A stretch of DNA of 64,000 nucleotides from the NCBI GenBank assembly GCA_002720475.1, contig PBIL01000002.1, positions 127,099-191,098 on the forward strand. Direction: 5' to 3'. Each line of letters starts with the position of its first letter. Position 1 is the first letter of the stretch. Both the position numbers and the translations under genes were made by a program. The notes beneath the pieces were generated by a model. The model was not told the DNA's origin. It searched no databases and was given only the letters and a program-made list of their open reading frames with translations. The stretch is from Roseovarius sp. (GTDB taxonomy: Bacteria; Pseudomonadota; Alphaproteobacteria; Rhodobacterales; Rhodobacteraceae). Below, in pieces: positions 28,476-45,941 of this stretch.

Positions 28476-29971
28476 TGGCCCCGGCGCAGAACCTCCTGCT
28501 GATCACGCTCGATCAGCTGCGCGCCGATGCGGTGTCCGGCGCGCTGCACGGGATCGTGCCCACCCCCGCGCTCGACCGGCTGCGCGCGGAGGGCACCGCC
28601 TTTGCCAACTGTTTCACCGCCGCCGTGCCCTGCGGCCCCGCGCGCGCCTCGCTTCTGACCGGGCTTTACGCCTTCAACCATCGCGGCATCCGCAACGGCA
28701 CGCCGGTGGCGGGGCATCACGCGACGCTCGGCACCGAATTGCGCCGCGCCGGGGCCGAGCCGCTCCTTTTCGGCTATTGCGACATGGCCGCCGACCCGAG
28801 CGAGCACCCGCCCGGCGATCCCGACCTTGCCACCTACGAATTGCCCGCGCGCGGCTTTCGAGAGATCGTCGAGATGCGCTTCGAGGCCCCGCTCGCCTGG
28901 ATCGGCCACCTGCGCCGCCGTGGCTATGACCTGCCCGCGCCGCTACCGCAACGCTGGTTCGGCCTCTACCGGCCGGTGGGCGAGGGGTTGCGCGCGCCCG
29001 CCCTCTACCGCGCGGAGGACAGCGATACCGCCTGGCTCACCGACCGCACGCTCGAGGCGCTCGAGGCGCGGCGCGACGGGGCGTGGTGCGCGCATCTGAC
29101 CTATATCCGCCCGCACCCGCCGCTGGTGGCCCCCGAGCCGTGGAACCGCCTTGCCGACGCGGCGCTCATCCCCGCGCCCGCGCCCGCGCCCGCAGGCTCC
29201 GATCACCCGTTCCGCGCCGCCTGGTTTTCGGCCCCCGCCCAGCACGGGCTTTTCTGGGGGTTCGACGGGCGTTGCGACCGGCTGTCGCCCGAAGACGTGG
29301 CCGATCTGCGCGCCACCTATCTCGGGCTTCTGGCCGAGGTCGATCACCATCTGGGCCGGATCCTCGACTGGCTCGACACCACCGGCCAGGCCGGGCGCAC
29401 GCTGGTGGTGCTGCTCTCGGATCATGGCGAGATGCTGGGCGATCAGGGCTACTGGGGCAAGGACAACGTGCTCGCCTCCGCCCATCACGTGCCCCTCCTC
29501 GTGCGCGGCCCGGACATCGCGGCGGGGCATGAGGTCTCGGAGGTGGTCTCGACCGTGGACCTGGCCCCGACCATCCTTGACCTGCTGGGGGCCGAGGTGC
29601 CGCCCGCGATGGACGGCACGTCGCTCAGGCCCTTCCTCGAGGGCCGGACGCCCGAAACCTGGCGCGGCCTCGCCCTGACCGAGATCGACCTTGCGGAGCC
29701 GCGCGCGCCCACAAGGTTCGAGCGCGCGCTCGGGCTTGGCCCGCTCACCGCCAATGCCGCGATCCTGCGCGACGCCACCCACAGCCTCGTGCATTTCAAC
29801 GGCGGGCTGGCACCGATGCTCTTCGACCGGCGCCGCGATCCGGGGGAGCAACACGACATGGCCGCCACACCAGAGGGTGCCGCGCAGGTGGCACGGCTGC
29901 GCGCCGCACTCATCGACCTGCGGATGACGCGCGCGGACCGGCGGCTCACCCACCTGTCGCATCTGCCCTGA
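28475..29971 (+). CDS. Formylglycine-dependent hydrolase, phosphonate monoester hydrolase-like (sulfatase superfamily)
   Basis: The 498-residue protein has the formylglycine motif CGPAR with Cys53, metal ligands Asp13, Gln14, Asp316 and His317, and active-site residues His214 and Lys329. An Asp-Gln pair at the N-terminal metal site is what I recall for phosphonate monoester hydrolases, where sulfatases usually have Asp-Asp. No signal peptide is visible, so it acts in the cytoplasm and needs a formylglycine-generating enzyme encoded elsewhere. It is the last gene of the AEP operon and could free AEP from an imported ester before PhnW acts. A phosphodiesterase or sulfatase role remains possible. 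It overlaps the convergent ELM1-family gene by 26 bp. Confidence 0.8.
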   Translation: MAPAQNLLLITLDQLRADAVSGALHGIVPTPALDRLRAEGTAFANCFTAAVPCGPARASLLTGLYAFNHRGIRNGTPVAGHHATLGTELRRAGAEPLLFGYCDMAADPSEHPPGDPDLATYELPARGFREIVEMRFEAPLAWIGHLRRRGYDLPAPLPQRWFGLYRPVGEGLRAPALYRAEDSDTAWLTDRTLEALEARRDGAWCAHLTYIRPHPPLVAPEPWNRLADAALIPAPAPAPAGSDHPFRAAWFSAPAQHGLFWGFDGRCDRLSPEDVADLRATYLGLLAEVDHHLGRILDWLDTTGQAGRTLVVLLSDHGEMLGDQGYWGKDNVLASAHHVPLLVRGPDIAAGHEVSEVVSTVDLAPTILDLLGAEVPPAMDGTSLRPFLEGRTPETWRGLALTEIDLAEPRAPTRFERALGLGPLTANAAILRDATHSLVHFNGGLAPMLFDRRRDPGEQHDMAATPEGAAQVARLRAALIDLRMTRADRRLTHLSHLP

Positions 29972-31070
29972 CCGCTTCCCCGCCGGGGGGCATGTCGAAG
30001 AGCGCGCGCACCCGCTCTGCCGCGCGATGCGCGCCCGCCAGCGGATCGGCCTGCGCCGCCGCGAACCACGTCTCGCCACCGGCGATCAATTCCGGGGCCT
30101 CTTCCAGCCAGCGCGCCTGCCCCTGCGCCACAAGGGCGGCCTGTATCCGCCCAACATCGCGCCGCATCCGCACCGGCGCGAGCCGCATGGCAAGCCGGTG
30201 GCTGAGCGGCTTCACACCGTAATTGTGCGCGCGCCGCCACCATTGGCCCGGCTCGGCCGGATCGAAGACATAGAGCGGGCGGGCCATGGCCGCGGCCTCG
30301 GCCAGCATCGACATGCTCTCGCCGGTGACGACGAAGCGGTCCGCGAGCCCCAGAAAGCCGCGATAGGGGTTCTCGGGCCAATCCTCCTTCGCGTCGGACC
30401 AGTAGCAGGCCGAAGGCACCTTGAGCGCCGCCCGGAAGGCCGCGCGCGCGGGCGCGGGGGTGCGCGCGCTGTCGCTGACCAGGACGCTGCCCCCCGTCGC
30501 CGCCACCAGCCGGTTGACCCCCGCCGCCAGCCGCCGCCCGGTCTCGGGCGTAAAGACATAGGCCCCGCTGTCGCCGCCGATGAGCACCGTCGTCCAGGGC
30601 CGCGGCAGATGCGCCAGACGGGGCGCGAGACGCGCGGCCTCATCCGCCACGCTCGTCCGCGTCATCGCGTGCAGCGGCAGCGGGTTGACCAGAATCCTTC
30701 CGCCCTCGGGCAGGAAATACTGCGGCGTCGTGACGACGAGATCGTAGGTTTCGGGCCGCGCCCAGGGACGGCCCACATGCACCAGCCTGACCCGCCCCCC
30801 GGCCCGTGCCCGGATCCAGCGCGCCACCGGCTCGTTGCGCCGTCCGGCGCTGATCACCAGATCGGGCCAGGGCGGCTCAAGGGCCGAGGAGGCCGCCCGG
30901 TCGATGCCCAGAAGCGTCTTTCCCAGCACGAGATGCGGCAGCAATTCCCAGGCGCGCGCGCGGATGCGCTTTTCCTCCACCGGCCAGCCAAGCGCCCCGG
31001 CCAGCGCCAGCACCTGCGTGTTGTCGCCCGCCTTGCGGCCCAGAAGAACCCAGAGTTTCCCTTGCATCAT
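29946..31070 (-). CDS. ELM1/GtrOC1-family protein (paralogue 1)
   Basis: The 374-residue protein matches the ELM1 family (mitochondrial-fission ELM1, DUF1022), which is predicted to have a glycosyltransferase GT-B-like fold. Visible family blocks are WVLLGRKAGDNTQVLALAGALG at the start, ISAGRRNEPVARWIR, TTPQYF and the C-terminal GESMSMLAEA with FDPAEP. No activity is established for bacterial members that I can cite. Two adjacent ATG codons (31070, 31067) are possible starts. It borders the sphingolipid region, which holds a second ELM1 protein at 37927-39042; a role in glycosylating a lipid headgroup is inference. Confidence 0.8.
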   Translation of the reverse strand: MMQGKLWVLLGRKAGDNTQVLALAGALGWPVEEKRIRARAWELLPHLVLGKTLLGIDRAASSALEPPWPDLVISAGRRNEPVARWIRARAGGRVRLVHVGRPWARPETYDLVVTTPQYFLPEGGRILVNPLPLHAMTRTSVADEAARLAPRLAHLPRPWTTVLIGGDSGAYVFTPETGRRLAAGVNRLVAATGGSVLVSDSARTPAPARAAFRAALKVPSACYWSDAKEDWPENPYRGFLGLADRFVVTGESMSMLAEAAAMARPLYVFDPAEPGQWWRRAHNYGVKPLSHRLAMRLAPVRMRRDVGRIQAALVAQGQARWLEEAPELIAGGETWFAAAQADPLAGAHRAAERVRALFDMPPGGEAVRADATGG

Positions 31071-31170: not shown

Positions 31171-32100
31171 ATGTTCAACACCACGCCCCGGGAAATCCGC
31201 GCCCTTGCCAGCCGTCACCTGATCCTCGGCGCGTGCTTCTTCCTGCCCAAACCCCGCCGCCTCGCGCTTGAACGGCGGCTGCGCGGGCGCGAGGAATACC
31301 GGAAACTGAAGGAGGCCGACTGGGTGCTCATGTCCTGGGGCAAGAGCGGGCGCACCTGGTTCCGGGTGATGCTGTCGCGCTTCTACCAGCTTCATTTCGG
31401 CCTGCCGACCGAGAACATGCTGGAGTTCGACAATTTCCACCGGATGAACCCGGCCGCGCCCAAGGTGCTGTTCAGCCACAACAACTACATGCGCGACTAC
31501 CTGGGCGAGTGGGAGCGGCTGGACCATTTCCGGGGCAAGCGCGTCGTGCTGCTTGTGCGCGACCCGCGCGACGTGGCGGTATCGCAGTATTTCCAGTGGA
31601 AATACCGGATGCTGCCCGGCAAGAAGGAGCTGAACTTCTACCCGCCCCACGGGGCGGAGGTGGAGATTTTCGAGTTCGTCTCGAACCCCGATTGCGGCAT
31701 CCCGCGCATCGTGGACTATTTCAACGGCTGGGCACGCGCCATGCCGATGATGGGCGATGACCTTCTGCTGATCCGCTACGAGGACATGCGCGCCGATCCT
31801 GCCACGGCACTTGAGCGCGCGGTGACGCATACCGGCACGCCGGGAAGCCCCGATCATATCGAGGCCGCGCGCGACTATGCCGCCTATGAGAACATGAAGA
31901 AGCGCGAGGCGAAGAACGAGGGGATGCGCGCCAGCGGCCAGCGGGTGAAACCGGGCGACGAGAGCAATCCCGACAGCTTCAAGGTCCGGCGCGGCAAGGT
32001 CGGCGGCTACCGTGACTATTTCACGCCCGAGGAACTGGCGGCCGTGGATGCCATGGTGGAGGGGCGGCTCGATCCGGTCTTCGGATATACGGCAGGGTAA
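31171..32100 (+). CDS. PAPS-dependent sulfotransferase
   Basis: The 309-residue protein has the 5'-phosphosulfate-binding loop WGKSGRTW (residues 56-63, Lys58), a variant of the usual PKSGTTW, and the 3'-phosphate-binding block LLVRDPRDVAVSQYF (about 127-141). It should transfer sulfate from PAPS to a hydroxyl or amine of a small molecule or lipid. It has no signal peptide, so it acts in the cytoplasm. It stands divergent from the first ELM1 gene and next to the ceramide synthase operon, suggesting a sphingolipid headgroup or sugar as acceptor, but the substrate is not known. Confidence 0.87.
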   Translation: MFNTTPREIRALASRHLILGACFFLPKPRRLALERRLRGREEYRKLKEADWVLMSWGKSGRTWFRVMLSRFYQLHFGLPTENMLEFDNFHRMNPAAPKVLFSHNNYMRDYLGEWERLDHFRGKRVVLLVRDPRDVAVSQYFQWKYRMLPGKKELNFYPPHGAEVEIFEFVSNPDCGIPRIVDYFNGWARAMPMMGDDLLLIRYEDMRADPATALERAVTHTGTPGSPDHIEAARDYAAYENMKKREAKNEGMRASGQRVKPGDESNPDSFKVRRGKVGGYRDYFTPEELAAVDAMVEGRLDPVFGYTAG

Positions 32101-32360: not shown

Positions 32361-33023
32361 TCAGCCGCGCCCGCCAAGCCCCTTCGCCATGCGCAGCAGC
32401 TTCTTGCCGGTATGGGTGCCCAGGCGCGAGATCCGCTGCGCCTGAAGCGCGAGCGGGTCCGAGCGCACCCAGTTCACCTGCACCATGCGCCGTTCGCCGT
32501 CGAAGCGCTTGTAGCCGTGATAGCTGTTGTTCGACCGCTTGAAGGCCAGGAGCGTGCCGCCGAGCGGCGTCACCTCGGCCACGTAATCCTCGATATCGTG
32601 CTTGCCGCGCAGCATCCGCAGCTTGCCGCCCTCCTGCGTCCATTCGGGGTTGAAGTAGAGCAGCACGGTCATGATCTTCGACCAGTGGTCGGTGTGGATG
32701 TTGCCGTCGCTCGGCTCCGAGAGCTTGCGCACGGTGATGGTCTTGGTGGTGCGGCTGAGGTCGATGTCGAACTTGCGCGAGATCAGGCGCTCGAATTCGG
32801 GGCTGTCGAGATCCTCGAGGATCTGCGCGAAGAGCGGGCCGTACTCAAGGCTTTCGGGTCTGAAATTGGCGGGCCGGTCGATATGCGGATAGTCCGCGTT
32901 GACCCGGTCGAGCATGTCGGCCGGGATCACCCCTGTTGCGACCGTGAAGCTGAACGGATCGGTGGTCAGCGGGGCCTTTTCTACGGCGTCGAAGTTGAGA
33001 AGTCTGGTCATCGTGGTTGTCAT
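32361..33023 (-). CDS. 2-oxoglutarate/Fe(II)-dependent oxygenase
   Basis: The 220-residue protein shows the facial triad of a 2OG-Fe(II) dioxygenase: His110 and Asp112 (NIHTDHW) and His169 (NSYHGYK), with a nearby arginine (Arg178 or Arg179) to hold 2-oxoglutarate. Its double-stranded beta-helix core resembles the prolyl-4-hydroxylase-like group. It starts four bases inside the NTP-transferase gene, so it is the third gene of the ceramide synthase operon. Hydroxylation of the lipid or its headgroup is a reasonable inference; the true substrate is unknown. Confidence 0.82.
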   Translation of the reverse strand: MTTTMTRLLNFDAVEKAPLTTDPFSFTVATGVIPADMLDRVNADYPHIDRPANFRPESLEYGPLFAQILEDLDSPEFERLISRKFDIDLSRTTKTITVRKLSEPSDGNIHTDHWSKIMTVLLYFNPEWTQEGGKLRMLRGKHDIEDYVAEVTPLGGTLLAFKRSNNSYHGYKRFDGERRMVQVNWVRSDPLALQAQRISRLGTHTGKKLLRMAKGLGGRG

Positions 33024-33883
33024 GTCTGCATCTCTCTAGAGGATGAAGGAAGAGGGGCGGCTTGCGGCGCGCGGGCCGCACTGGCGTAACGCTGGAGCAC
33101 AACATAATCATCGACCGAGTCGACATCCACCGAGGCATGGGCATAGGGCAGGACGACCACGCCCACGCGCAGCCCCGCCTTGCGCGACAGAAGCGCGAGC
33201 GCGCGCTCGAGCGTGAGCCAGCCCAGCCGGTAGCGCAGCACCGCCCAGAGCCCGAGCATCCGGATCACCACGCGCGGCTTCTTGCGCTCGCGCTCGATCT
33301 GCCGCCAGAAATCGGCCATCCGGCGGCCGTCGGCGGTGAGAAAGGCGAAAAGGTTGCAGCCGCAATACTGCCCGTCGGCAAAGCGCAGCACGGTCTTCTT
33401 CAGGTCCGGATAGGCCCCGCGCACCAGATCGTAGGGCGCGAGCCCCACCACCACGTCGCAGCCCGAGCGCGCCGCGTCGCGGCAGAAGTGATCGACGATC
33501 TCGCTTGTCAGCAGCGGGTGATCGGCGGTGGTGATCATCACCTTGCGGTCTTCGGGAAAACCCGTGAGCATCGCGTAGGCGCTGCTCGACGGGGTGGGGC
33601 CGGGCGCGGTCCAGCTTACCCGCCCTTGCCCGATCATCCCCGAGAGCACGTCCGAGCCCTGGACCACAGCCTCGGCCGGGCCGCTCAGATGCACCGAGGC
33701 CACCGGCGCGGCCCCCTCAAGGGCGGAAATCACCCGCGCGATCATCGGCCGCCCGTCGATCTCGATCAGCGCCTTGCTCGCCACGCCCGCGTGATCGCGC
33801 AGCGCGTCGCGCGCATCGCGCTCTCCGGCAAGGATGACGGCGGCGAAATCGGGGGCTTGGGTATCTGCGGCGGGTCGGGTCAT
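33020..33883 (-). CDS. NTP-transferase (MobA-like nucleotidyltransferase) domain protein
   Basis: The 287-residue protein has a Rossmann-like nucleotidyltransferase start (FAAVILAGER, then SKALIEIDGRPMI) and the metal-binding aspartate segment MITTADHPLL. A C-terminal region of about 70 residues may be membrane-associated (WAVLRYRLGWLTLERALALL). Such proteins link a nucleoside monophosphate to a phosphorylated sugar or alcohol. It lies between the ceramide synthase and oxygenase genes (13-bp gap and 4-bp overlap), so it may activate a headgroup precursor. No specific substrate can be read. Confidence 0.72.
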   Translation of the reverse strand: MTRPAADTQAPDFAAVILAGERDARDALRDHAGVASKALIEIDGRPMIARVISALEGAAPVASVHLSGPAEAVVQGSDVLSGMIGQGRVSWTAPGPTPSSSAYAMLTGFPEDRKVMITTADHPLLTSEIVDHFCRDAARSGCDVVVGLAPYDLVRGAYPDLKKTVLRFADGQYCGCNLFAFLTADGRRMADFWRQIERERKKPRVVIRMLGLWAVLRYRLGWLTLERALALLSRKAGLRVGVVVLPYAHASVDVDSVDDYVVLQRYASAARAPQAAPLPSSSREMQT

Positions 33884-33896
33884 CGGTCGGGCGGCC

Positions 33897-35045
33897 TCAG
33901 AGCGGCTTCTGATAGAGGCGGTAGCGCTTGTGGATCGTGCTGCCGATTTCCTCGATGATGTGGCGCATACCGTCGTTATCCTCCAGAATCCAGCCCATCT
34001 CGACACGGGTGACGCCGCGCCGGATCATCTGCCTGCGCACCGCGTCGATCACCAGGAAGGCCAGCGTCGGGCCGAGCCGCGAATACTGGTGTTCCTTGCG
34101 CACACCCATCAGCGCCACGCGCGTGCTCTTCGCGCCCCGCACCTTGAGCCGCCACAGCAGCCTGGCCCAGCCGAAGGGGAATAGACGCCCGCGCAGGTCG
34201 TGGATCATCTCGTTGAGGTTCGGGAAGGCCGCGATGAAGGCCACCGCGCGCCCGTCGATCTCGGCGAACTGGATGTAATCGTCCGGCAGAAGCAGGGTCA
34301 GCGCCTTGGCGGTCTCGTCGAACTCTTCCGGCGTGAAGGGCACGAACCCCCAGTTGTCGGACCAGGCATCGTTGAAGATGTCGCGCATGGCGGCGAAATC
34401 GGCGGCCTTGTCCCTGCGGTTGAAGGGGCGGATGCGCACCTTGCGGCTGGCGCGCTCGGCCAGCTTGGTCATCACCGGCGGGGCCACGAAATCGGGCTGC
34501 ACCATGTAGGTCAGCAGATCCTTGACGCCGACATAGCCCTGCGCCTCGATCCGCGGACCGTAATAGCGCGGCGCGTGGCCCATCATGATGAAGGGGGGGC
34601 TGTCGAAATTCTCGACCAGAAGGCCGATCTCCTCGTTGATCGAGAGATTGTAGGGCCCGCGCACCTGCGCGGCACCGCGCGCGCGCAGCCACTCCTCGGC
34701 CGTCCCGAAGAGCGCCGCGAACACGGCGGCGTCATCCACCGCCTCGATCATCCCGAAATAGCCGAGCCTGCCGCCCGCCACCTCGGGCTGCATCCTGTCC
34801 ATCTGCGCGGTGATGCGGCCCACCGGTTCGCCCGCGCGCCACGCCACCCATCGGGCCACCTCGCAATGCGCGAAAAGCGGCTTGTTGTGATAGACGCGCT
34901 GTTTCTGCTCGATCAGAAGCGGCGGCACGAAGGCCGGATCCCCGGCATGAATCCGCTCGGGCAGCTTCAGGAACGCGCGTGCCGCGCGGCCCGCATCTGC
35001 CGGGCGGACCTCGATCGGGGCGCTTGCGGGCGCGCTTGGGGTCAT
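33897..35045 (-). CDS. bcerS: GNAT-type bacterial ceramide synthase homologue (N-acyltransferase)
   Basis: The 382-residue protein has two GNAT-like halves. Its blocks (FLKLPERIHAGDPAFVPPL near the N terminus, then GYFGMIEAVDD, RGPYNLSINEEIGLLVENFDSPP and AWSDNWGFVPFT) match the long family that includes E. coli YghO and, as I recall, the Caulobacter bacterial ceramide synthase bCerS. bCerS N-acylates the sphingoid base to give (dihydro)ceramide. The presence of Spt, AcpR, CerR and AasR homologues 7-11 kb away supports this role. The ATG at 35045 is preceded by AAAGG; a far longer open frame upstream is antisense to the acyltransferase gene. Many family members are annotated only as hypothetical. 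Confidence 0.72.
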   Translation of the reverse strand: MTPSAPASAPIEVRPADAGRAARAFLKLPERIHAGDPAFVPPLLIEQKQRVYHNKPLFAHCEVARWVAWRAGEPVGRITAQMDRMQPEVAGGRLGYFGMIEAVDDAAVFAALFGTAEEWLRARGAAQVRGPYNLSINEEIGLLVENFDSPPFIMMGHAPRYYGPRIEAQGYVGVKDLLTYMVQPDFVAPPVMTKLAERASRKVRIRPFNRRDKAADFAAMRDIFNDAWSDNWGFVPFTPEEFDETAKALTLLLPDDYIQFAEIDGRAVAFIAAFPNLNEMIHDLRGRLFPFGWARLLWRLKVRGAKSTRVALMGVRKEHQYSRLGPTLAFLVIDAVRRQMIRRGVTRVEMGWILEDNDGMRHIIEEIGSTIHKRYRLYQKPL

Positions 35046-35267
35046 GCTGTGCCTTTCGATCTGCCGGGCGGGGTCTCGCATCCCGCCCTGCCCTCTTGCG
35101 GGCGCTCTAGCCTTGCCGCATCGGGGCCGGGCAGGGCAAGCCCCCCACGCCGCGCGCGGCGCGAAACCCGTAAGATTGTTACAACCCCGTGCGCCATAGG
35201 CGGCGATCCCTTGCCACAAAAGGCTTGCGGATCGGGGACCGAACCTTGATGAACCGGAAACCGGATT

Positions 35268-36257
35268 TTGATCGTGCAGGGGGCCGTCTTGGCCAAGTTC
35301 ATCCTCGGAAGCCATCTTCGCCACAGGGCGGTCGAAAGCCGGGCCGCCGCCCATGTCCTGTGGTTCGTCGATCTGGCCTTCATCGGCACGGTGAGCGGTT
35401 TTTTCCGGGTGCTGCCGCTGCCCTGGGCCTCGGCCACGGGGGCGCGGTTCGGCCGGTTTCTGGGCCGCATCTTCCGCAACCGCACCCGGCACGTGCGCGC
35501 CAACCTGTCGCTTGCCCTGCCCGGAACCCCGCCCGAGGTGATCGACCGGCTGGCCGAGGAGGTCTGGGGCAACGCGGGCGCGGTCTTTGCCGAATACCCC
35601 CATCTGGCCAAGTTCACCGACCCGAAGCGCGGCCTTCTGCGCATCGAGACGGTCGAGCCCGACCCGCCCTATTGCCGCCCCGGCACGCCCGTGGTCTTCG
35701 TCGCCGCCCATCTCGCCAACTGGGAAGTGGCCTGCGCCGCGATGACGCAGATGGGCATCCGCTCCTATGCGCTCTATGCGCCGCTGGCCAATCCGTGGCT
35801 GGACAGGCTCATGCTGCGCCACCGCGCCAAGCTCGGCTGCGAGACGGTCTCGCGCGAGGCGGGGCTGCGCGTCTTCCTTCAGGCGCTCAAGAGGGGCGAG
35901 GCCCCGGCGATGATCATCGACCGGCGCGTGGATGGGGGCAAGCCGATCCCGTTCTTCGGCGCGGAAAAGGACAGCTCCACCCTGCCCGCGGGTCTTGCCC
36001 TGCGCTTTGGCGCGCCGCTCGTGCCGGTGCAGGTCGAGCGTCACCCCGGCGCGCGCTTCACCGTGCGCTTTCACGCGCCGCTTGCCCCGCGCAACCCCGA
36101 GGCCGACACGGACGCACAGGCGCTTGACCTCACCCGCCAGATCCACGAGCGGTTCGAGGAGTGGATCACGGCGCGGCCCGGCGAATGGCTCTGCACCAGC
36201 AAAATCTGGCACGGTTCTGTTCTTCGGGCGAAAACCGACGTATATAGACAAGTCTGA
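35268..36257 (+). CDS. LpxL/HtrB-like lysophospholipid acyltransferase (paralogue 1)
   Basis: The protein (up to 329 residues) belongs to the lipid A biosynthesis acyltransferase family. The catalytic H-x4-E motif is intact (AAHLANWE, His148 and Glu153 from this start), followed by IIDRRVDGG and PVQVERHPGARF. A hydrophobic segment near residues 28-45 would anchor it to the inner membrane. The start is uncertain: TTG at 35268, GTG at 35274 and TTG at 35289 (the last after CAGGGGG) are all possible. It is divergent from the ceramide synthase operon, so it could acylate lipid A or a sphingolipid. Confidence 0.8.
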   Translation: MIVQGAVLAKFILGSHLRHRAVESRAAAHVLWFVDLAFIGTVSGFFRVLPLPWASATGARFGRFLGRIFRNRTRHVRANLSLALPGTPPEVIDRLAEEVWGNAGAVFAEYPHLAKFTDPKRGLLRIETVEPDPPYCRPGTPVVFVAAHLANWEVACAAMTQMGIRSYALYAPLANPWLDRLMLRHRAKLGCETVSREAGLRVFLQALKRGEAPAMIIDRRVDGGKPIPFFGAEKDSSTLPAGLALRFGAPLVPVQVERHPGARFTVRFHAPLAPRNPEADTDAQALDLTRQIHERFEEWITARPGEWLCTSKIWHGSVLRAKTDVYRQV

Positions 36258-37934: not shown

Positions 37935-39042
37935 GCCGCGCGTCTGGGTGCTCGACGCCTATCGCGCGGGCGAGCGCACGCAGCTGCGCGCGCTGGCAAC
38001 GGCGCTTGGCTGGCCCTTCGAGATCAAGCGGCTTTGCTATCGCCGCTTCGGGCAGGCAAGCGCGCTCTTGCTGCGCAACGACCTGAGCGGCATCGACCGC
38101 GCGGCCTCCGATCCGCTCGTGCCGCCCTGGCCCGATCTGGTCCTCTCCATCGGCATGCGCAACGAGCCGGTGGCGCGCTGGATCCGTGACCGATCGGGCG
38201 GGCGCGCGAAACTGGTCTTTCTCGGGCGGCAATGGGCCGATCCGCGCCATTTCGACCTGGTGATCACCACGCCGCAATACCCGGTGCCCGAACGCGCCAA
38301 CGTGCTGCGCAACGCGCTGCCGCTGCACGGGGTGACGCGGGCGCGGCTTGACGCGGCGGCGCAACTCTGGGCACCGCGGCTTGCGCATCTGCGGCGGCCC
38401 TGGCTCGCGGTGAATATCGGCGGCACGAGCGGGCCCTATGCCTTTGGCCGCCACGCCGCCGCGCGTCTTGTGCGCGACACGCTGGCACTGGCGCGGGCGC
38501 GGGGGGCCTCGCTTCTGGTGAGTTCGAGCGCGCGCACACCCGCCTGCGCGCTCGATGCCTTTGCCGCGCAGCGGGAGGTGCCGATGCAGCTCTATCGCTG
38601 GCGGCGCGACGATCCGGACAATCCCTATCTGGGCTTTCTGGCGCTCGCCGACGAGGTGATCGTGACCGCCGACAGCATCTCCATGCTGGCCGAGGCCCAT
38701 GCCACGGGCAAGCCGCTCTACATGTTCGACACCGGTGCCGGGCGGTTTTCCATGCGTCACGACATGCACCGCGCGGCAGGCGAGGCACAGGCGGCGCGGG
38801 CGCGGGCCAGAGCCGATGCAGACCGCGCGGATCACGCCGCGGGCGCGCTTGCCTATCGCGCGCTCATGCGCTTGGGCTGGTCCTATCTGAGCCGCGACAT
38901 CAGCCGGCTGCACCTGCGGCTGGTCCGGTCCGGGCGCGCGGTCTGGCTGGGCGATCCGCCGACACCGGGGCCCGAAGCCCCGGACACCGACGACATGGCC
39001 CGCGCCACGGCCGCGATCCGCGCGCTCATCCCGCGCGGCTGA
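37927..39042 (+). CDS. ELM1/GtrOC1-family protein (paralogue 2)
   Basis: The 371-residue protein is a paralogue of the protein at 29946-31070. It shares SIGMRNEPVARWIRDRSGG, ITTPQYPVPERAN, NIGGTSGPYAFG and TADSISMLAEAHATGKPLYMFD. The GT-B-like layout suggests nucleotide-sugar binding, though no catalytic residue is established. Its start lies inside the acyltransferase gene (8-bp overlap), and its stop overlaps the convergent ABC exporter gene by 17 bp. Two copies flanking the sphingolipid genes make a linked function plausible. Confidence 0.8.
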   Translation: MSEPRVWVLDAYRAGERTQLRALATALGWPFEIKRLCYRRFGQASALLLRNDLSGIDRAASDPLVPPWPDLVLSIGMRNEPVARWIRDRSGGRAKLVFLGRQWADPRHFDLVITTPQYPVPERANVLRNALPLHGVTRARLDAAAQLWAPRLAHLRRPWLAVNIGGTSGPYAFGRHAAARLVRDTLALARARGASLLVSSSARTPACALDAFAAQREVPMQLYRWRRDDPDNPYLGFLALADEVIVTADSISMLAEAHATGKPLYMFDTGAGRFSMRHDMHRAAGEAQAARARARADADRADHAAGALAYRALMRLGWSYLSRDISRLHLRLVRSGRAVWLGDPPTPGPEAPDTDDMARATAAIRALIPRG

Positions 39043-40732
39043 GCCTGCCGCCCACCTCGAGCCGGTGAACCACGTCGGCGGCCTGTGCCATGCCCTCGTT
39101 ATGGGTGATGGCAAGGATGGTCAGCTCGTCCCGCAGCGCCTTCAAGGTGGCGATGATCTCGGCCTCGCTCTCGGGGTCGAGCGCGCTGGTCGCCTCGTCG
39201 AGGATCAGCAGGCGCGGCGCGTTGATCAGCGCGCGGGCGATGGCGATGCGCTGGCGCTGCCCGCCCGAGAGCCTGCCGCCGCGCTCGCCCACCAGCGTCT
39301 CCAGCCCCTCGGGCAGCGCGCGCACGAACGCCCACGCCCCGGCCTTTTCCAGCGCCGCACGCGCCTGCGCCTCGGAAATCGCCGGATCGCCCAGCGTGAC
39401 ATTGTGCAGGACCGTATCGTGCAGAAGCACCGTCTCCTGCGGCACATAGCCCACCATCCGCCGCCAGGCGCGCAGGTCTATGGTCTCGAAGGGGACCCCG
39501 TCGATGCGTATCTCGCCGCTCTCGGGGCGCAGAAGGCCGATGATCAGGTCGATCACCGTGGTCTTGCCCGAGCCCGACGGACCGACGAGCGTGGTGATCC
39601 GGTGCGCCGGGATCTCGAGATCGAGCCCGCTCAGAACCGAATGCCCCTCATAGGCGAACCGCAGGCCCTCCAGGGTGATGCCCCGCTCCAGCACCGGCGT
39701 GACATGGCCGCCAAGATGTTCCTGCTCGGCCTCGGCGCGCGCGCTCGTGTCCCTGAGCGACCAGAAGGCGCTCTCGGCCTGGGCAAGTTTCTGATACTGT
39801 TTCTGCACCTTGCCGAGAAAGGCGAAGGTCCGCCCGAGCGCCACCGAGAGGATGAGCACGGTGGCGAATTCCATCTTCAGGACTCCGATGGCCAGATAGA
39901 CGCCGAGCGCGATCAGCATGACGAACATCAGATCCTGCCCTGCGTCGAGCGCCGCCCCCGCCAGAACCTGCTTGCGCAGCGCCTTGTTGAGGCGGTTGGT
40001 CTCGCCCTGAAGCATCCGGTCGGTCAGACCCTCGCGCGCCATCGCCTTGAGCGGCTTGACCGATTGCAGCGTGTCGGTGAGATGCGACATGAGCGAGATC
40101 ATCAGCTCGGTCTGCCGCTTGCCCGCCCGCCGCGTCATCCTGACCAGGAAATGCGACAGCCAGATCACCGCAGCACCCGCCATCAGGCTGACGGCCGTCG
40201 CCTGCCAGGAGACCGCAAGCGCGACGGAACCATAGACGACCGCCTGGATGAGAAAGGTCAGCGCGGTCGCGCCATTGAGATAGGCGTCCGAGGCGCGCTG
40301 CGCCTCGGTGGCCAGCGCATTGGTCAGCCGCCCCGCGGGCTGGTGCAGGAAGAAGCTCCAGCGGCTGCGCATCATGTTGCGCAGCACCTCGAGCCGCAGA
40401 TCGGTTGCCACCCGCGCCGCCGTATAGCCCACCTGCCGCTGCGCCGCGAGCAGAAGGACCGCCTTGAGCGTCGCCATCGCCACGATCAGGAGCAGAAGCG
40501 CACCAAGCGTGGCGGGCACCCCGAGCCAGGCCAGCACGTCGAGCACGATCTGCTCGAGCTGTCCGGGCGGCTCGGCCGTCTCTGTCCCCTCGCCCGAGGC
40601 GAGCGCGATATTGAGCATCGGCAGCATCGCCGAGAGGCCCAGCCCCTCGGCCAGCCCCGACAGGAACAGCGCCAGCACCATCAGGAAACTCGGCATCGGA
40701 TAGGCGCGGAAGAGGTGGATCATCAGGCGCAT
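39026..40732 (-). CDS. MsbA-like ABC exporter (fused membrane and ATPase domains)
   Basis: The 568-residue half-transporter has an N-terminal six-helix membrane domain (about residues 5-310) and a C-terminal ATPase with Walker A GPSGSGKTT, signature LSGGQRQR and Walker B LLILDEATSALD. Such homodimers flip lipids or lipid-linked sugars. As the last gene on the strand of the spt operon (72 bp after the metallophosphoesterase), it is a good candidate for moving the sphingolipid across the inner membrane. The ATG at 40732 follows GGAGAG. A toxin or peptide exporter role is less likely because no partner protein is present. Confidence 0.85.
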   Translation of the reverse strand: MRLMIHLFRAYPMPSFLMVLALFLSGLAEGLGLSAMLPMLNIALASGEGTETAEPPGQLEQIVLDVLAWLGVPATLGALLLLIVAMATLKAVLLLAAQRQVGYTAARVATDLRLEVLRNMMRSRWSFFLHQPAGRLTNALATEAQRASDAYLNGATALTFLIQAVVYGSVALAVSWQATAVSLMAGAAVIWLSHFLVRMTRRAGKRQTELMISLMSHLTDTLQSVKPLKAMAREGLTDRMLQGETNRLNKALRKQVLAGAALDAGQDLMFVMLIALGVYLAIGVLKMEFATVLILSVALGRTFAFLGKVQKQYQKLAQAESAFWSLRDTSARAEAEQEHLGGHVTPVLERGITLEGLRFAYEGHSVLSGLDLEIPAHRITTLVGPSGSGKTTVIDLIIGLLRPESGEIRIDGVPFETIDLRAWRRMVGYVPQETVLLHDTVLHNVTLGDPAISEAQARAALEKAGAWAFVRALPEGLETLVGERGGRLSGGQRQRIAIARALINAPRLLILDEATSALDPESEAEIIATLKALRDELTILAITHNEGMAQAADVVHRLEVGGRLSRAG

Positions 40733-40804
40733 GGCTTGGCTCTCCGGTTGGGTGTGCGCTCCTATCGCCCCGGAGCGCGGCAATGTCCACCGCCTGCCCG
40801 GGCG

Positions 40805-41692
40805 TTACGGCTCGGCATGGGCGCGGATGAGGTGATGGGTGGCCGCATGGCCGGTTTCCATGCCGCCGGGCGCGTGTCGCCGGGCGGTGAGCGTGACCTG
40901 CCAGCCCCCGGCAACGGGGGCGATGTGATAGCGGTGCCAGGCGGCCGCCTCGGGACGGGTGGCCGAGGCCGAGGGCACGCCGATCACCGGGGCCACGCCG
41001 CTTGCCGTTTCCATCTGCTGATGATGGCTGCGATGGCTGTGGCCGTGAAGCACCAGCTCCACCCCCTCCTGCGCCAGCACGGCGCAGAGCGCGGGCGCGT
41101 CCAGAAGCCGCTTGCGCGCCCGCACCGTGCCGCCCAGCGGCGGGTGATGCACCATGACGACACGGCAGAGCCCCTCGGCGCGTGCCCCTGCCAGAAGCGC
41201 CGCCAGCCGGTCAAGCTGTGCCGCCCCCACGGCACCCACGGCGCGGCCCGGGGCAGAGGCCACGGCGCTCGACAGACCGATGAGCGCAAGGCCCCCGCGC
41301 CGCCGGAGCCAGGGAAATCCGCCCCCGTCATCGCCCTGCCAGAAGGGCCGCCACGATTGCGCGCCCGCCTCCCAGGCTCCGCGCACCAGCGCGTCGTGAT
41401 TGCCGGGGATCACCATGACGCCTTCCGGCTTGCCCAGCGCATCGAGCCAGCCGCGCGCCTGCGCGTATTCCTGCGGCAGGCCGAGGTTGGTCAGGTCCCC
41501 CGTCACCGCGATCAGGTCCGGTGCCGCCGCGTGAATGTCGGCCACCAGCCGCGCCAGAACCTCGGGCCGATGGATGAGATGGCGCTTGCGCCGCCATGAC
41601 AAGAGGCTGAGCGCGCGCTTGTTCAGCACGGCGCGCCAGTCCACGCGATCAGGCAGCGGCAGATGCACATCCGACAGATGCGCCAGACGCAT
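40805..41692 (-). CDS. Calcineurin-like metallophosphoesterase
   Basis: The 295-residue protein shows the five metallophosphoesterase motifs: LSDVH (Asp8, His10), GDLTN (Asp66), GNHD (Asn98, His99), VHHPP and GHSH. The two-metal centre hydrolyses phosphomono- or diesters. It follows spt by 41 bp in the same direction. In this setting it may remove phosphate from a lipid or headgroup intermediate, but cyclic nucleotides or nucleotide sugars are equally possible substrates. The ATG at 41692 is the first codon that gives the conserved N-terminal strand; open frame upstream enters spt. Confidence 0.87.
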   Translation of the reverse strand: MRLAHLSDVHLPLPDRVDWRAVLNKRALSLLSWRRKRHLIHRPEVLARLVADIHAAAPDLIAVTGDLTNLGLPQEYAQARGWLDALGKPEGVMVIPGNHDALVRGAWEAGAQSWRPFWQGDDGGGFPWLRRRGGLALIGLSSAVASAPGRAVGAVGAAQLDRLAALLAGARAEGLCRVVMVHHPPLGGTVRARKRLLDAPALCAVLAQEGVELVLHGHSHRSHHQQMETASGVAPVIGVPSASATRPEAAAWHRYHIAPVAGGWQVTLTARRHAPGGMETGHAATHHLIRAHAEP

Positions 41693-41733
41693 GCCGCGCT
41701 CGGGGCTCTCCTCCACCGTGCGTAGCCCCGCCG

Positions 41734-42933
41734 CTACTCCGCGACCGCCGTGGCGGCCCCGGCGCGCACGCTCTCGAAGGCGGCGAGGATCCGGTCGATC
41801 TGGTCGAACGTGTGCCCCGCGCTCAGGCTGCATCGCAGGAGCGAGGCACCCTCGGGCGCGGCGGGCGGCACCACGAGGTTGACATAGACCCCCTGATCGA
41901 GCAGCGCGTTCCACATGCGCGCGGCTTCCTCGTGCGAGGGCACCTGCACCGCGATCACCGGGCTTGGCGCGGAGGCAAGCCGGTAGCCGAGCACCTGGAG
42001 CCCGGCATGGAGCCTGCGGGCATTGGCCCAGATCTGCGCCTTGAGCTCGGGGCGCGCGCGCACTGCCCGCAGCGCGGCATGAGCCGCCGCGATGCTCGCC
42101 GGGCTGGGCGAGGCGGTGAAGATATAGGGCCGGCTGCCATAGCGCAGAAGCTGCAATTCCGGGTGGCGGCTCACGCAGAAGCCGCCCAGCGAGGCGAGGC
42201 TCTTGGAAAACGTGCCGGTGATGAAATCCACCTGATCGAGGATCCCCGCCTCCTCGCAGAGGCCCCGCCCCGTCTCGCCATAGACGGCAAAGGAATGGGC
42301 CTCGTCAACCATGAACCAGGCACCGAACTCCTTGGCCACGGCGCACAGATCGGCCAGGGGCGCGGTATCGCCCCACATGCTGTAGAGCCCCTCGGCGATC
42401 ACCAGCGCCCCCTCCGCCGCGCCGCCCAGACGGCGCAGCCGCTTGCGCAGGTCTTCCGCATCGTTGTGCCTGAAGGCGAAGAAATCCGCCCCGCTGATGC
42501 GGCAGCCGTCATAGATGCAGGCGTGGCTGTGGGCATCCAGAACCACCTTGTCGCCGGGTTGCAAGAGCGCCATGAGCAGGCCCAGATTGGTCTGGTAGCC
42601 GGTGGAAAACACCATCGCCGAGGGCACGCCGTAGAACCGCGCGAATGCTTCCTCGAGCGCGGCATGGCTCGAGAAGCTGCCATTGGCCATGCGCGAGCCG
42701 GTGGTGCCCGAGCCCTCTTCGTGCATCGCGGCGCAGCCCGCCTCGATGATCTCGGGATCGAAGGTCAGGCCGAGATAGTTGTTGGTGCCGACAAGGATCG
42801 TGGGGCGGCCCGCGATCACCGCCTCGGTGGGCGAAAGGAACCGCTCCATCACGATGCGGCTCGGGTCGGCCTCAAGGCTGCGCAGCCCGTCGCGGACCTG
42901 CGCCATCTCGGTGAAACGTGCGGTGATGCTCAT
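41734..42933 (-). CDS. spt: Serine palmitoyltransferase
   Basis: The 399-residue alpha-oxoamine synthase condenses serine with an acyl thioester to 3-ketosphinganine. It resembles Sphingomonas Spt more than KBL or AONS: GTNNYLGLTFDP, VFSTGYQTNLG, EGLYSMWGD and PPAAPEGASLLRCS are near-identical in type. Active-site residues are present: His137 (stacking on PLP), Asp210 and His213 (VDEAHS), Lys244 (GTFSKS) and Arg367. An acyl carrier protein gene overlaps its start (ATGA), as in Caulobacter. 5-aminolevulinate and biotin enzymes share the fold, but the pathway neighbours settle the call. Confidence 0.88.
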   Translation of the reverse strand: MSITARFTEMAQVRDGLRSLEADPSRIVMERFLSPTEAVIAGRPTILVGTNNYLGLTFDPEIIEAGCAAMHEEGSGTTGSRMANGSFSSHAALEEAFARFYGVPSAMVFSTGYQTNLGLLMALLQPGDKVVLDAHSHACIYDGCRISGADFFAFRHNDAEDLRKRLRRLGGAAEGALVIAEGLYSMWGDTAPLADLCAVAKEFGAWFMVDEAHSFAVYGETGRGLCEEAGILDQVDFITGTFSKSLASLGGFCVSRHPELQLLRYGSRPYIFTASPSPASIAAAHAALRAVRARPELKAQIWANARRLHAGLQVLGYRLASAPSPVIAVQVPSHEEAARMWNALLDQGVYVNLVVPPAAPEGASLLRCSLSAGHTFDQIDRILAAFESVRAGAATAVAE

Positions 42934-43187
42934 GCCCGGTCCTCGACAAGTTGTGCGATCTTGGCGGCCAGTTCGCGGATCGTGGTGATGTCGGCCATCA
43001 TGTTGAGCGGCAGGCCGACGTCATAGTGATCCTCGATCTCCACCAGCAATTCCATGAGGTTGACCGAATCGAGGCTCAGATCGTCGGCCAGTTTCGTGTC
43101 GGGGCCAAGGTTTCCGGCGGCCTTGGGGAAGCGCCCCAGAAAGCCGTAAAGCGTCTCGATGATCTCGTCCGGCGTCTCAGATGACAT
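42930..43187 (-). CDS. acpR: Acyl carrier protein of sphingolipid synthesis
   Basis: The 85-residue protein has the phosphopantetheine site Ser41 in LSLDSVNLMEL (DSV in place of the usual DSL), with acidic helix II after it. It would carry the acyl chain delivered by the AMP-dependent synthetase to Spt, as AcpR does in Caulobacter. Both ends overlap neighbours: 11 bp with cerR and 4 bp with spt. It is clearly different from a housekeeping AcpP in sequence around the site and in gene context. Confidence 0.87.
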   Translation of the reverse strand: MSSETPDEIIETLYGFLGRFPKAAGNLGPDTKLADDLSLDSVNLMELLVEIEDHYDVGLPLNMMADITTIRELAAKIAQLVEDRA

Positions 43188-44127
43188 GGCTCTTGCCTCT
43201 CTCGGTTTGCGGCCCCGGCCGGGCCCAGAGCGCCCGCAGCCCCTCGGCCAGCGGGATTTGCGGCACCCAGCCGGTGGCGGCGCTCAGCGCAGTATTGTCG
43301 GCCACCCAGTCGGGGTGGCGCAATTCGCGCAGCTTGCCGGGGCTCAGCATCGGCTGATAGCCGAAAAGCCGCGCGGCGAAAAGATTGGCCGTGGCGACAG
43401 GGCGCAGGATCGCGCCGGGCAGCGGCACGCGCCAGCCGCGCCCGCGCCCCGCGACGGCCTCGACGATGGTGGCGATCTCCTCCCAGGAATAGCCGCCCGG
43501 ATGCCCGTCATCGAGCTCGAACGTGCCGGGCACGGGAGGCGCGACGAGCGCAAGAACGGCCCGCGCCAGATCCTCGACATGCAGAAGCGAGGCGCGCGCG
43601 CCCGTAATCCCGGGCAAGGGCACGATGCCCCGCGCCATGGTCTCGAAGAGCGGCACAAGCTCTCGGTCCCCGGGGCCGTAGAGCGCGGGCGGGCGCAGGA
43701 TCGCGTGATCGAGCCCCGAGTCCGCAAGCCGCGCCTCACCCTCCCGCTTGCTCGCGGCGTAAGGCGACAGCTGCGGCTCGCGCGCGGCGAGCGAGGAAAT
43801 CAGGATCACGCGCGGCGGCGTGTGCTGTGCGTGCGCCACGCGCGCCACACGCGCCACGCCCTCGGCATTCACGGGCCGGAAATCGCGCGCGTCGCGGCCC
43901 CGCACGACGCCTGCCACATGAATGACGGTGCCCGCCCCCTCGATCAGACGCGCGAGCGCGGCCTCGTCCTCAAGCCCTCCGGTCACGCTCTCAAGCGCGG
44001 GATGGTCGATGGCGAGCGGGCTGCGGTGCACCAGCGCACGCACGCCATGGCCCTCGGACAGGAGCCGCGCGACGATGGCCCGCCCGACGAAGCCCGCAGC
44101 CCCCGTGACCGCGACCAGCCGGGTCAT
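43177..44127 (-). CDS. cerR: NAD-dependent epimerase/dehydratase family protein, ceramide reductase homologue
   Basis: The 316-residue extended SDR has TGAAGFVG (residues 8-15) for NAD(P) binding and catalytic Tyr123 and Lys127 (YAASK). In Caulobacter the corresponding gene, CerR, reduces the 3-keto group of the sphingoid intermediate, a role done by unrelated enzymes in eukaryotes. Position between the acyl-ACP synthetase and AcpR genes, overlapping both (4 bp and 11 bp), matches that arrangement. A nucleotide-sugar epimerase is the alternative by fold alone. Confidence 0.82.
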   Translation of the reverse strand: MTRLVAVTGAAGFVGRAIVARLLSEGHGVRALVHRSPLAIDHPALESVTGGLEDEAALARLIEGAGTVIHVAGVVRGRDARDFRPVNAEGVARVARVAHAQHTPPRVILISSLAAREPQLSPYAASKREGEARLADSGLDHAILRPPALYGPGDRELVPLFETMARGIVPLPGITGARASLLHVEDLARAVLALVAPPVPGTFELDDGHPGGYSWEEIATIVEAVAGRGRGWRVPLPGAILRPVATANLFAARLFGYQPMLSPGKLRELRHPDWVADNTALSAATGWVPQIPLAEGLRALWARPGPQTERGKSHVI

Positions 44128-45941
44128 GCAATGTAACGGATCGGTGCCTCGTCCACGGTCTCGGGCTGCGAGTCGGCGGGCTTCACGGTGGCGGGCTGCA
44201 TCGGCACCGCGGCCGCCGCCTGTTGCCGTGCCAAATGATCCAGCCGCGCACGCGCGCGCGCCAGCTTGCCCGAGGAGGTGCGCGGCAGCGTCCGGGTCGG
44301 CACCAGTTCCACCCGGCAGTCGATACCGAATTCGCTGCGCACCATGCCGATGATGGTCTTGACCAGACGCGCGCGCTTGATCTCGTCGCGCTCGCGGCAC
44401 TGCACCACGATCACCGCCTCCTCGTGACGCCCGTCCTCGGACGGGACCGAGAAGGCCGCGACATCGTTGTAGTTCACGCCCGGCTGGCTCTTGGCCAGAT
44501 GCTCGAGATCCTGCGGCCAGATGTTGCGGCCGTGAATGATGATCATGTCCTTCTTGCGGCCCGTCAGGAACAGCCGCCCGCCCGCGAGATAGCCGATATC
44601 GCCGGTGTTGAGCCAGCGATCGGCGCTCAGCGCCTCGCGCGTCATCTCCTTGTCCTGGAAATAGCCGCTCATCACGCTCGGGCCACGCAGGTGGATGACG
44701 CCCGCGTGCCGTTCGGGCAGGGCGCGGCCCTGCTCGTCGCGGATCTCGATCTCGAAGCTGGGCAGCAGCGCGCCGCAATCGACATAGCGGGCCACGCGGC
44801 GCTCTGTCCCCTCCGCCTCGGCCGGGTCGAGCGGCCGCGCGATACCGTCGCGCTGCATGGCCTCGGAATCGATATGGTCGATGCCCACCTCTTCCTCAAG
44901 CGGCAGGAAGCTGATCCCGAGCGAACATTCCGCCATGCCGTAGCAGGGCAGGAAGGCGGTCTTGCGGAACCCGGCGGGGGCCAGCACCTCGGCAAAGCGT
45001 TCGAGCGGCTCTGGGCTGATCATCTCGGCACCCACACAGGCCACGCGCAGCGCGCTGAGGTCAAGCCCCTCGGCATCGTGCGGGCGCACACGCATCACCG
45101 CCAGTTCATAGGCGAAGGGCGGGGCCGAGGTGATCGTGGCGCGGTTCACGGACATCATCTCGAGCCACTTGCGCGGGCGCATGGCGAAATCATGGGTGCC
45201 GAGGAAATCCACCGAACGCTGCGTCGCCATCGGCATGATGATGAAGGCGACAAGCCCCATGTCGTGATAGAAGGGCAGCCAGGAGCTGAACCTGTCGCCC
45301 TCGTGCAGCTTCAGGCCGTTCTCGGCCATGTCGCGGATATTGGCCAGAACCGTCTTCTGGTCGATCACAACGCCGCGCGGAAAGCGCGTGCTGCCCGAGG
45401 TATACTGGATATAGGCGGTGCTCCCGGGCGTCACGCCGGGCAGATCGCCCGCCGCTTCGGGCAGCGCGTCGAAGGTCTCGGGCGTGCCGACAAGGGCGAG
45501 GTCCATGCCCGCCACCGCCTCTTGCAGGAAATCCGCCCATTCCGGCGTCGCCATCGCCGCCGAGGCACCGCAATTGCGGATGAGCTGCGCAAGCTGCGCC
45601 ACATAGGCCGCGTGCCCGCCGATCTGGATCGTCGCGGGCAGCGGCACCGGCACGAGGCCGGCATACTGGCAGGCCCAGAAGAAGCGCACGAAATGCGGCG
45701 AGGTCTCGGCCACCAGCGCCACGCGCCCGCCGGGCGCGATGCCAAGGCCGCTCAGACGGCGCGCCAGCGCGATCGCCTCCTCGCGCAACTCGGCATAGGT
45801 CGCGGAGGCGTAGATCTCGCCCCGCGCGCTGAAGAAGTTCACCCCCGTCGTGCCCTGCGCGGCATAGTCGAGCGCCTCGCACAGGGTGGAGAAATCAGCC
45901 TTTCGCAAGGCAAGATCATGCGAACTGCCGGTCGCTTGCAT
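44124..45941 (-). CDS. aasR: AMP-dependent acyl-ACP/CoA synthetase of sphingolipid synthesis
   Basis: The 605-residue adenylate-forming enzyme has a P-loop TSGSTRFPRG (departing from the usual TSGSTGxPKG), YGMAE, the TGDIGY and GRKKDMIIIHGRNIWPQDLE hinge region, and the C-terminal catalytic lysine in RTSSGKL. It activates a fatty acid for loading on AcpR, like Caulobacter AasR; its overall look is also close to fatty-acyl-AMP ligases. It heads the four-gene operon. The start at 45941 follows AAGGA, with a TTGACA-containing promoter-like sequence about 90-115 bp upstream. Confidence 0.85.
   Translation of the reverse strand: MQATGSSHDLALRKADFSTLCEALDYAAQGTTGVNFFSARGEIYASATYAELREEAIALARRLSGLGIAPGGRVALVAETSPHFVRFFWACQYAGLVPVPLPATIQIGGHAAYVAQLAQLIRNCGASAAMATPEWADFLQEAVAGMDLALVGTPETFDALPEAAGDLPGVTPGSTAYIQYTSGSTRFPRGVVIDQKTVLANIRDMAENGLKLHEGDRFSSWLPFYHDMGLVAFIIMPMATQRSVDFLGTHDFAMRPRKWLEMMSVNRATITSAPPFAYELAVMRVRPHDAEGLDLSALRVACVGAEMISPEPLERFAEVLAPAGFRKTAFLPCYGMAECSLGISFLPLEEEVGIDHIDSEAMQRDGIARPLDPAEAEGTERRVARYVDCGALLPSFEIEIRDEQGRALPERHAGVIHLRGPSVMSGYFQDKEMTREALSADRWLNTGDIGYLAGGRLFLTGRKKDMIIIHGRNIWPQDLEHLAKSQPGVNYNDVAAFSVPSEDGRHEEAVIVVQCRERDEIKRARLVKTIIGMVRSEFGIDCRVELVPTRTLPRTSSGKLARARARLDHLARQQAAAAVPMQPATVKPADSQPETVDEAPIRYIA

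Follow-up and report, generated by a model that had tools for sequence, protein, structure and literature searches.

Five ceramide genes, with aasR, cerR, acpR and spt in that order, lie in the Caulobacter crescentus cluster CC_1152-CC_1168 (PMC11324152; PMC9386255, in part), where CC_1153 encodes a CofC-like nucleotidyltransferase and 16 of whose 17 genes have an orthologue in Hyphomonas (PMC11324152). Spt, AcpR and AasR of Escherichia coli BL21 have been tested (PMC9386255, in part). Lipid A usually anchors the lipopolysaccharide of the outer membrane. Sphingomonas naturally lacks lipid A and uses glycosphingolipids, and Caulobacter may lose lipid A given sphingolipids (PMC10964400; PMC6445935, the latter in part). 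A 2020 survey of type strains of the Alphaproteobacteria found sphingolipids to be apparently restricted to the Sphingomonadales, according to the available portion of the article (PMC7179689). Here we analysed a ceramide gene cluster of Roseovarius sp. (Rhodobacteraceae), at positions 29946-45941 of a window of 64,000 nucleotides, that is, the whole stretch of DNA studied (contig PBIL01000002.1, positions 127,099 to 191,098; assembly GCA_002720475.1). We call clusters of this kind type A. Almost all genomes with a type A cluster have lost genes of lipid A synthesis, and a decorated ceramide lipid probably replaces lipid A in their outer membrane, as in Sphingomonas.

We searched 84 Roseovarius genomes with bCerS, the ceramide synthase homologue of the cluster. 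Fourteen carry a type A cluster (at least 593 bits), 6 carry a Hyphomonas-like cluster that we call type B (243-269 bits) and 64 have none; the two types occurred together in 0 of the 84. Below, L-numbers are individual loci and G-numbers individual genomes, and presence was called by family profiles over genomes of varied quality. LpxC is absent from 13 of 14 type A genomes against 1 of 70 others (G097, 81% complete), and LpxB from 13 of 14 against 1 of 70 (G092, 85% complete), with a Fisher p of 3e-13 in each case, shared ancestry being ignored; in G089 the LpxB match was below cut-off only. When the count is restricted to genomes at least 90% complete, LpxC and LpxB are both missing from 10 of 11 in type A and from 0 of 61 others. 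The sole type A exception for both proteins is a metagenome-assembled genome (MAG), G103, and all six type B genomes have matches to both. A search of the literature library used found no report combining Roseovarius and lpxC.

Part of the loss can be read at a single site. In lipid A-positive species, lpxA, lpxI and lpxB lie behind fabZ. The bamA-ompH-fabZ genes are present in type A loci (BamA in 10/10 read), and lpxA and lpxB are missing behind fabZ in 9 of these 10 loci, as is lpxI save in R. tolerans, which has an LpxI-like gene; the tenth locus, that of G103, has all three genes, and G018, G019, G080 and G081 lie outside this set. The empty site was seen in the host genome (L175), R. mucosus, Roseovarius sp. 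217, R. autotrophicus, G071 and a 4.17-Mb chromosome contig (L172). As the host assembly is 74% complete, L175 is the direct evidence for the host genome itself. The 23 non-type-A fabZ loci were fetched through LpxB coordinates, so that lpxB is present there by construction; WaaA loci were likewise fetched through LpxK and LptD loci through LptF/LptG matches, and the unbiased counts are those of the genome-wide LpxC and LpxB searches. As a separate observation, lpxB lies in two overlapping pieces in different frames in G075 (C1:3239433-3240478; type B) and G032 (C1:1955718-1956748), both otherwise lipid A-positive, which is a frameshift, a sequencing error or recoding.

Other envelope genes have been kept. 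WaaA, the transferase of 3-deoxy-D-manno-octulosonic acid (Kdo), adjoins LpxK in 11 type A loci read, and PF04413 was matched in five WaaA proteins scanned from lipid A-negative genomes. In 8 full-length lipid A-negative cases, WaaA keeps 101-107 of the 111 residues invariant in six controls, and its divergence is no faster than in controls; LpxK of the same 8 genomes keeps 71-133 of 155 such residues. Of 11 type A LpxK proteins examined, 9 have a destroyed Walker A motif (GGTGKT), through changes that differ between lineages, whereas the motif is intact in 6/6 controls, R. tolerans and G103; no LpxK match was found in the host genome at its 74% completeness. LptF, LptG, LptD and SurA are retained in 4/4 type A loci read, the host genome included. 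That WaaA is under constraint suggests that Kdo still has an acceptor of some kind. KdsA is also full-score in 14/14 type A genomes, but kdsA belongs to a kps-like capsule locus, and we dropped its retention as proof of Kdo on a new lipid, WaaA being the better argument. In part of the genus (L189, L191, L194, L223), kdsA adjoins a putative sugar-phosphate mutase gene and putative kpsT- and kpsE-like genes; these neighbours are missing from 11 of 40 kdsA loci, in at least one of them owing to a short contig.

The LpxL family follows the cluster: each of 6 type A genomes has exactly two PF03279 matches, both within the cluster, while 7 other Roseovarius genomes have one or two at other sites. 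The cluster itself comprises the following genes.

29946..31070, minus strand: ELM1a, putative glycosyltransferase (PF06258), 48% to ELM1b
31171..32100, plus strand: ST, sulfotransferase dependent on 3'-phosphoadenosine-5'-phosphosulfate (PF00685, 1.2e-20)
32361..33023, minus strand: 2OG, 2-oxoglutarate-Fe(II) oxygenase, variable cluster member (PF13640)
33020..33883, minus strand: NTPT, NTP transferase, homologue of the Hyphomonas gene adjoining bCerS (CC_1153 position; PF12804)
33897..35045, minus strand: bCerS, homologue of the GNAT-type ceramide synthase of bacteria (48% to E. coli BL21 YghO)
35268..36257, plus strand: LpxL1, LpxL-family acyltransferase with an HX4E motif (PF03279)
36286..36933, plus strand: FAH, member of the fatty acid hydroxylase family, His boxes present (PF04116)
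36987..37934, plus strand: LpxL2, LpxL-family acyltransferase with an HX4Q motif (PF03279)
37927..39042, plus strand: ELM1b, putative glycosyltransferase of GT-B fold
39026..40732, minus strand: ABC exporter, fused transmembrane and nucleotide-binding domains, candidate flippase (PF00005, PF00664)
40805..41692, minus strand: MPE, calcineurin-like metallophosphoesterase (PF00149)
41734..42933, minus strand: spt, serine palmitoyltransferase (NF047599, PDB 2x8u, tree)
42930..43187, minus strand: acpR, specialised acyl carrier protein with a DSV serine motif, directly before spt (PF00550)
43177..44127, minus strand: cerR, ceramide/3-ketosphinganine reductase homologue, extended short-chain dehydrogenase/reductase (PF01370; GAAGFVG and YAASK motifs)
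44124..45941, minus strand: aasR, acyl-ACP synthetase of the fatty acyl-AMP ligase family, expected to load AcpR (PF00501, 4.5e-57; NF006624)

The original prediction, made from the letters of this DNA alone, placed five ceramide genes within 12 kb and interleaved tailoring families among them. Both points hold: bCerS to AasR spans 12.0 kb (33897 to 45941), and all 15 genes are open frames with a Pfam match to their stated family, namely ELM1 (twice), sulfotransferase, 2OG oxygenase, NTP_transf_3, GNAT (24.4 bits for bCerS, cut-off 20.7), Lip_A_acyltrans (twice), FA_hydroxylase, ABC, metallophosphoesterase, Aminotran_1_2, PP-binding, epimerase and AMP-binding. The genes form a minus-strand run aasR-cerR-acpR-spt-MPE-ABC with overlaps of a few bases among the first four, a plus-strand run LpxL1-FAH-LpxL2-ELM1b, and the remaining bCerS-NTPT-2OG (minus), ST (plus) and ELM1a (minus). 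Neighbourhood conservation, one of the suggested checks, exceeds chance within the genus, the block from NTPT to AasR being collinear in 12 Roseovarius loci as far as contigs extend (L058 and L060 are short and display part of it). The 2OG oxygenase, listed by the prediction as a cluster gene, is present in the window and in L054-L057 and L059; it was not found in the loci of R. mucosus (L061), R. tolerans (L064) and Roseovarius sp. 217 (L063), and is thus a varying member. ELM1a and ST adjoin the block in the window, R. mucosus and G071, and lie about 10 kb past aasR in G081 and G084. Among named relatives, those nearest to the host are R. autotrophicus SHN287, R. mucosus DSM 17069, R. tolerans DSM 11457 and Roseovarius sp. 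217, plus MAGs. The cluster extends beyond 29946-45941. In the host genome a sulfatase-family gene (PF00884; window 28475-29971, plus strand) directly adjoins ELM1a, and a class-V aminotransferase gene lies near it (26506-27693).

Ceramide synthesis by this cluster is well supported by homology. Firstly, Spt scored 572.9 bits on NF047599, the NCBI equivalog of the "BetaP" type (cut-off 500), and AasR 726.7 bits on NF006624, a fatty acyl-AMP ligase model (cut-off 600); Spt remained below the "AlphaP" model NF047603 (471.2 bits, cut-off 670). Secondly, solved bacterial serine palmitoyltransferases align over nearly the whole of Spt (best E 1.4e-126, PDB 2x8u), including its TFSKS lysine, DEAH and LLRCS arginine blocks. 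Thirdly, acpR and spt overlap, with aasR upstream and cerR in between, and the DSV motif of AcpR is retained across aligned Roseovarius orthologues. The prediction had asked for phylogenetic placement. For Spt this set 47 sequences, the window's included, apart from 7 paralogous pyridoxal phosphate-enzyme sequences with support 99 (7 of 13 candidate outgroup loci passed the coverage filter); the bCerS, AasR and CerR trees, built from homologues in Spt loci only and free of an outgroup, show relationship rather than exclusion from other families. In these trees, whose supports were computed unrooted, type A alone has support 100 for all four proteins, and it groups with E. coli BL21 and betaproteobacteria (Sulfuritalea and, for Spt, Methylotenera too) with supports of 75 (Spt), 96 (bCerS), 100 (AasR) and 88 (CerR). 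Three type B genomes cluster instead with Hyphomonas (support 100 in all four trees). Thus, the genus has probably gained sphingolipid genes at least twice. We also noted plasmid-borne spt homologues adjoining an annotated carrier protein in Pseudomonas, Rahnella, Klebsiella, Roseomonas and Diaphorobacter (records H2, H3, H4, H8-H11), which suggests that ceramide genes are mobile.

Comparison with the described systems separates type A from each of them. With Caulobacter it shares the five ceramide genes, the order aasR-cerR-acpR-spt and homologues in the positions of CC_1153, CC_1160 (the ceramide kinase) and CC_1161, a likeness drawn through Hyphomonas sequences as a stand-in: compared with the corresponding Hyphomonas genes, NTPT scores 37%, the kinase 30% and the CC_1161 homologue 34%, the NTPT counterpart (in L108) adjoining bCerS. 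Unlike Caulobacter, type A lacks a second LptF/LptG pair (6/6 genomes tested), has an ABC exporter, three ELM1 proteins, two LpxL proteins, sulfotransferases and a fatty acid hydroxylase, and has lost lipid A genes. Type B keeps to the other pattern: in G008 (L095) the ceramide-kinase and CC_1161 homologues, an LptF/LptG pair, bCerS and an NTP transferase stand together, and in G008, G075 and G001 the kinase homologue and the extra pair adjoin bCerS. LptF/LptG matches number 2 in 6/6 type A, 4 in 3/3 type B and 2 in 4/4 cluster-free genomes. The core proteins of type A branch not with Hyphomonas but with E. coli BL21 and Sulfuritalea, and the ECD_02850-02854 set of BL21(DE3) is a named relative (Spt 50%, bCerS 48%, AasR 45%, CerR 42%, AcpR 33%); its neighbour genes are unlike those of type A, and E. 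coli keeps lipid A. Sphingomonas combines sphingolipid synthesis with absent lipid A, as type A does, a likeness by description and not by gene content; type A belongs to another order and retains WaaA. Rhodothalassium salexigens resembles type A as an alphaproteobacterium outside the Sphingomonadales with ceramides and spt, and differs in its order and in having simple dihydroceramides, described as free of sugar or phosphate in the available portion of the source (PMC11762602).

The genes around the core were compared with those of 62 non-type-A loci reached through Spt. ABC, FAH and NTPT homologues are common to type A and some alphaproteobacterial loci: the ABC gene adjoins the aasR-cerR-acpR-spt genes in L082 and L083 (Kiloniellales), L112 (Rhodospirillales), L078 and L080, and FAH and NTP transferase genes adjoin bCerS in L083 and L112. 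In these five loci no LpxL, ELM1, MPE or ST homologue was detected. Across the 62 loci there was none of LpxL, ST, 2OG or MPE, and ELM1 occurred once, in a Parvularculaceae sphingolipid locus (L081:12290, plus strand). The "MsbA-like" exporter of the original prediction stands at the level of the ABC superfamily, and reaches no exporter cut-off among the 25 NCBIfam models shown. ST can be aligned with cytosolic sulfotransferase 18 and keeps SWGKSGRTW, RDPRDVA and RRGKVGGYRDYF wherever the contig extends that far, among them putative phosphosulfate-binding motifs. The ELM1 proteins, found in 6/6 type A against 0/7 other Roseovarius genomes tested, have a GT-B fold whose best matches are GT-B-fold epimerases, so that sugar transfer by them is putative. 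MPE (model pLDDT, the predicted local distance difference test, 74.2) was considered as LpxH; Foldseek ranks Rv0805 first, then acid sphingomyelinase, with LpxH lower, and we assign it no function. For the LpxL pair, HX4Q in LpxL2 was dropped as a sign of inactivity, since canonical Roseovarius LpxL proteins carry HX4N, and displacement of a housekeeping LpxL was unsupported (25-32% identity to six canonical Roseovarius genes).

A satellite locus lies off the window, on another contig, and holds homologues of the ceramide kinase and of CC_1161, a third ELM1 and a second sulfotransferase. We therefore rejected the idea of a cluster without ceramide kinase: a DAGK_cat homologue adjoins the third ELM1 gene in 6/6 type A genomes tested. 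Two paralogous proteins of about 316 residues with a DPD motif adjoin the kinase homologue (L140:7900-8850 and 13310-14269, 62% identical; L144:7126-8106 and 12530-13504); the L140 pair, when scanned, had no Pfam match, and they are possibly an unnamed GT-A-like glycosyltransferase family. Sulfotransferase number differs among close relatives, with four genes in the G084 block (L144:4689-5714, 11250-12212, 13592-14605, 14650-15606) and three in G081 (L141). The original prediction overlooked this satellite, as it did the identity of NTPT as the CC_1153 counterpart, the second cluster type and the disappearance of lipid A genes, the last of which alters the probable purpose of the cluster. Its proposal that the locus makes, decorates and exports a sphingolipid is well supported for ceramide synthesis; decoration and export may follow, as the co-occurrence of the genes suggests.

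Gene content, its co-occurrence with lipid A gene loss, and retention of WaaA, LptF, LptG and LptD are observed in the genomes examined; from these we infer enzyme substrates, the order of steps, the structure of the lipid and its location in the membrane. AasR would load AcpR, Spt would condense the acyl group with serine, and N-acylation by bCerS and reduction by CerR would yield ceramide. This product would then be hydroxylated, phosphorylated through the satellite kinase and CC_1161 homologues, glycosylated through the ELM1 proteins, O-acylated through LpxL1 and LpxL2, and sulfated through ST and the second sulfotransferase. The ABC protein would flip the decorated lipid and the retained Lpt machinery would carry it outwards, making it the main outer-leaflet lipid in the type A clade. 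That it stands in place of lipid A is argued from the disappearance of lpxA, lpxB and lpxC and from the lack of an ATP site in most LpxK proteins. We advance more tentatively, as somewhat less probable than not, a bolder version in which lipopolysaccharide is rebuilt on ceramide: WaaA would put Kdo on a sphingolipid that bears phosphate or sugar, the LpxL paralogues would add more acyl chains to it and Lpt would export it. Lipid IVA, the known acceptor of WaaA, can no longer be made, yet WaaA is under ordinary constraint; in this version a sphingolipid would be the acceptor.

Several observations weigh against replacement of lipid A. The coupling is correlational and concerns one clade, formed by the type A genomes and a single type B genome, so that common descent is left out of account in the p-values. 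R. tolerans retains an LpxI-like gene and an LpxK with intact P-loop, and in MAG G103 (L062, L179, L182, L183) a type A cluster coexists with lpxA, lpxI, lpxB, lpxC and a P-loop-intact LpxK. By its fabZ locus G103 belongs to the R. mucosus group (support 100), by its cluster proteins it goes with R. tolerans; these conflicting placements may mean that the genome is transitional, recombinant or a chimeric bin. In the host genome, at 74% completeness, WaaA was not located. Finally, 3-OH fatty acids are usual in lipid A, and other lipids could also supply them. The genus description includes C12:1 3-OH and C10:0 3-OH fatty acids (PMC8267831, in the portion available).

A different account would be that the cluster makes a minor phosphosphingolipid, akin to the ceramide phosphoglycerate of Caulobacter, and that lipid A loss is unrelated, the outer leaflet being made up of phospholipids or some other lipid. 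Type A genomes do have homologues of the CerK, CC_1161 and CC_1153 genes, and type B clusters exist alongside LpxC in 6/6 genomes; we nevertheless regard this account as unlikely, because type A and lipid A gene loss are coupled near-perfectly, the sole LpxL homologues of 6 type A genomes lie in the cluster, and the 62 other loci hold no ST, 2OG, LpxL or MPE and a single ELM1. Slightly less likely still is that the sulfotransferases, ELM1 and GT-like proteins act on capsule or another polysaccharide, their ceramide neighbourhood being fortuitous: type A genomes have a putative kps-like locus with kdsA elsewhere, and ELM1a and ST shift position between genomes, whereas ELM1 is confined to type A among the 13 genomes compared and ELM1b is interleaved among ceramide genes in conserved order. 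That the absence of lpx genes is an artefact of assembly is scarcely credible: the host assembly is incomplete and several type A genomes are MAGs, but five genomes that are 98-100% complete agree, namely those of R. mucosus DSM 17069, R. tolerans DSM 11457, Roseovarius sp. 217 and R. autotrophicus and the one with the 4.17-Mb contig, and the genes of the fabZ locus are in place as far as the gap.

If a decorated ceramide lipid did replace lipid A, it may have done so repeatedly. We built a tree of 33 genomes from BamA-OmpH-FabZ(-RseP), BamA being itself an outer-membrane assembly protein. It unites the 10 type A genomes included with G079, of type B, in one clade (support 100). Irreversible loss of lipid A requires four losses on this tree, also without G103; when both G103 and G079 are removed, one suffices. 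The staggered state of LpxK and the differing P-loop changes favour several losses. A species tree from the capsule locus, which we judged weak as it excludes 11 of 40 genomes in which genes were missing, again placed G079 inside the type A group. Given four losses after the gain, arrival of the cluster may itself make lipid A dispensable.

Most Gram-negative bacteria require lipid A and a few can do without it; the reason for this difference is an open question (PMC10964400). Within one genus, Roseovarius presents lipid A genes without a cluster, lipid A genes with a Caulobacter/Hyphomonas-type cluster, and type A without lpxA, lpxB and lpxC, with R. tolerans and MAG G103 as possible intermediates. 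The genus, in which R. mucosus DSM 17069 and R. tolerans DSM 11457 are culturable type strains, thus offers a natural experiment on which features of a sphingolipid permit the loss of lipid A.

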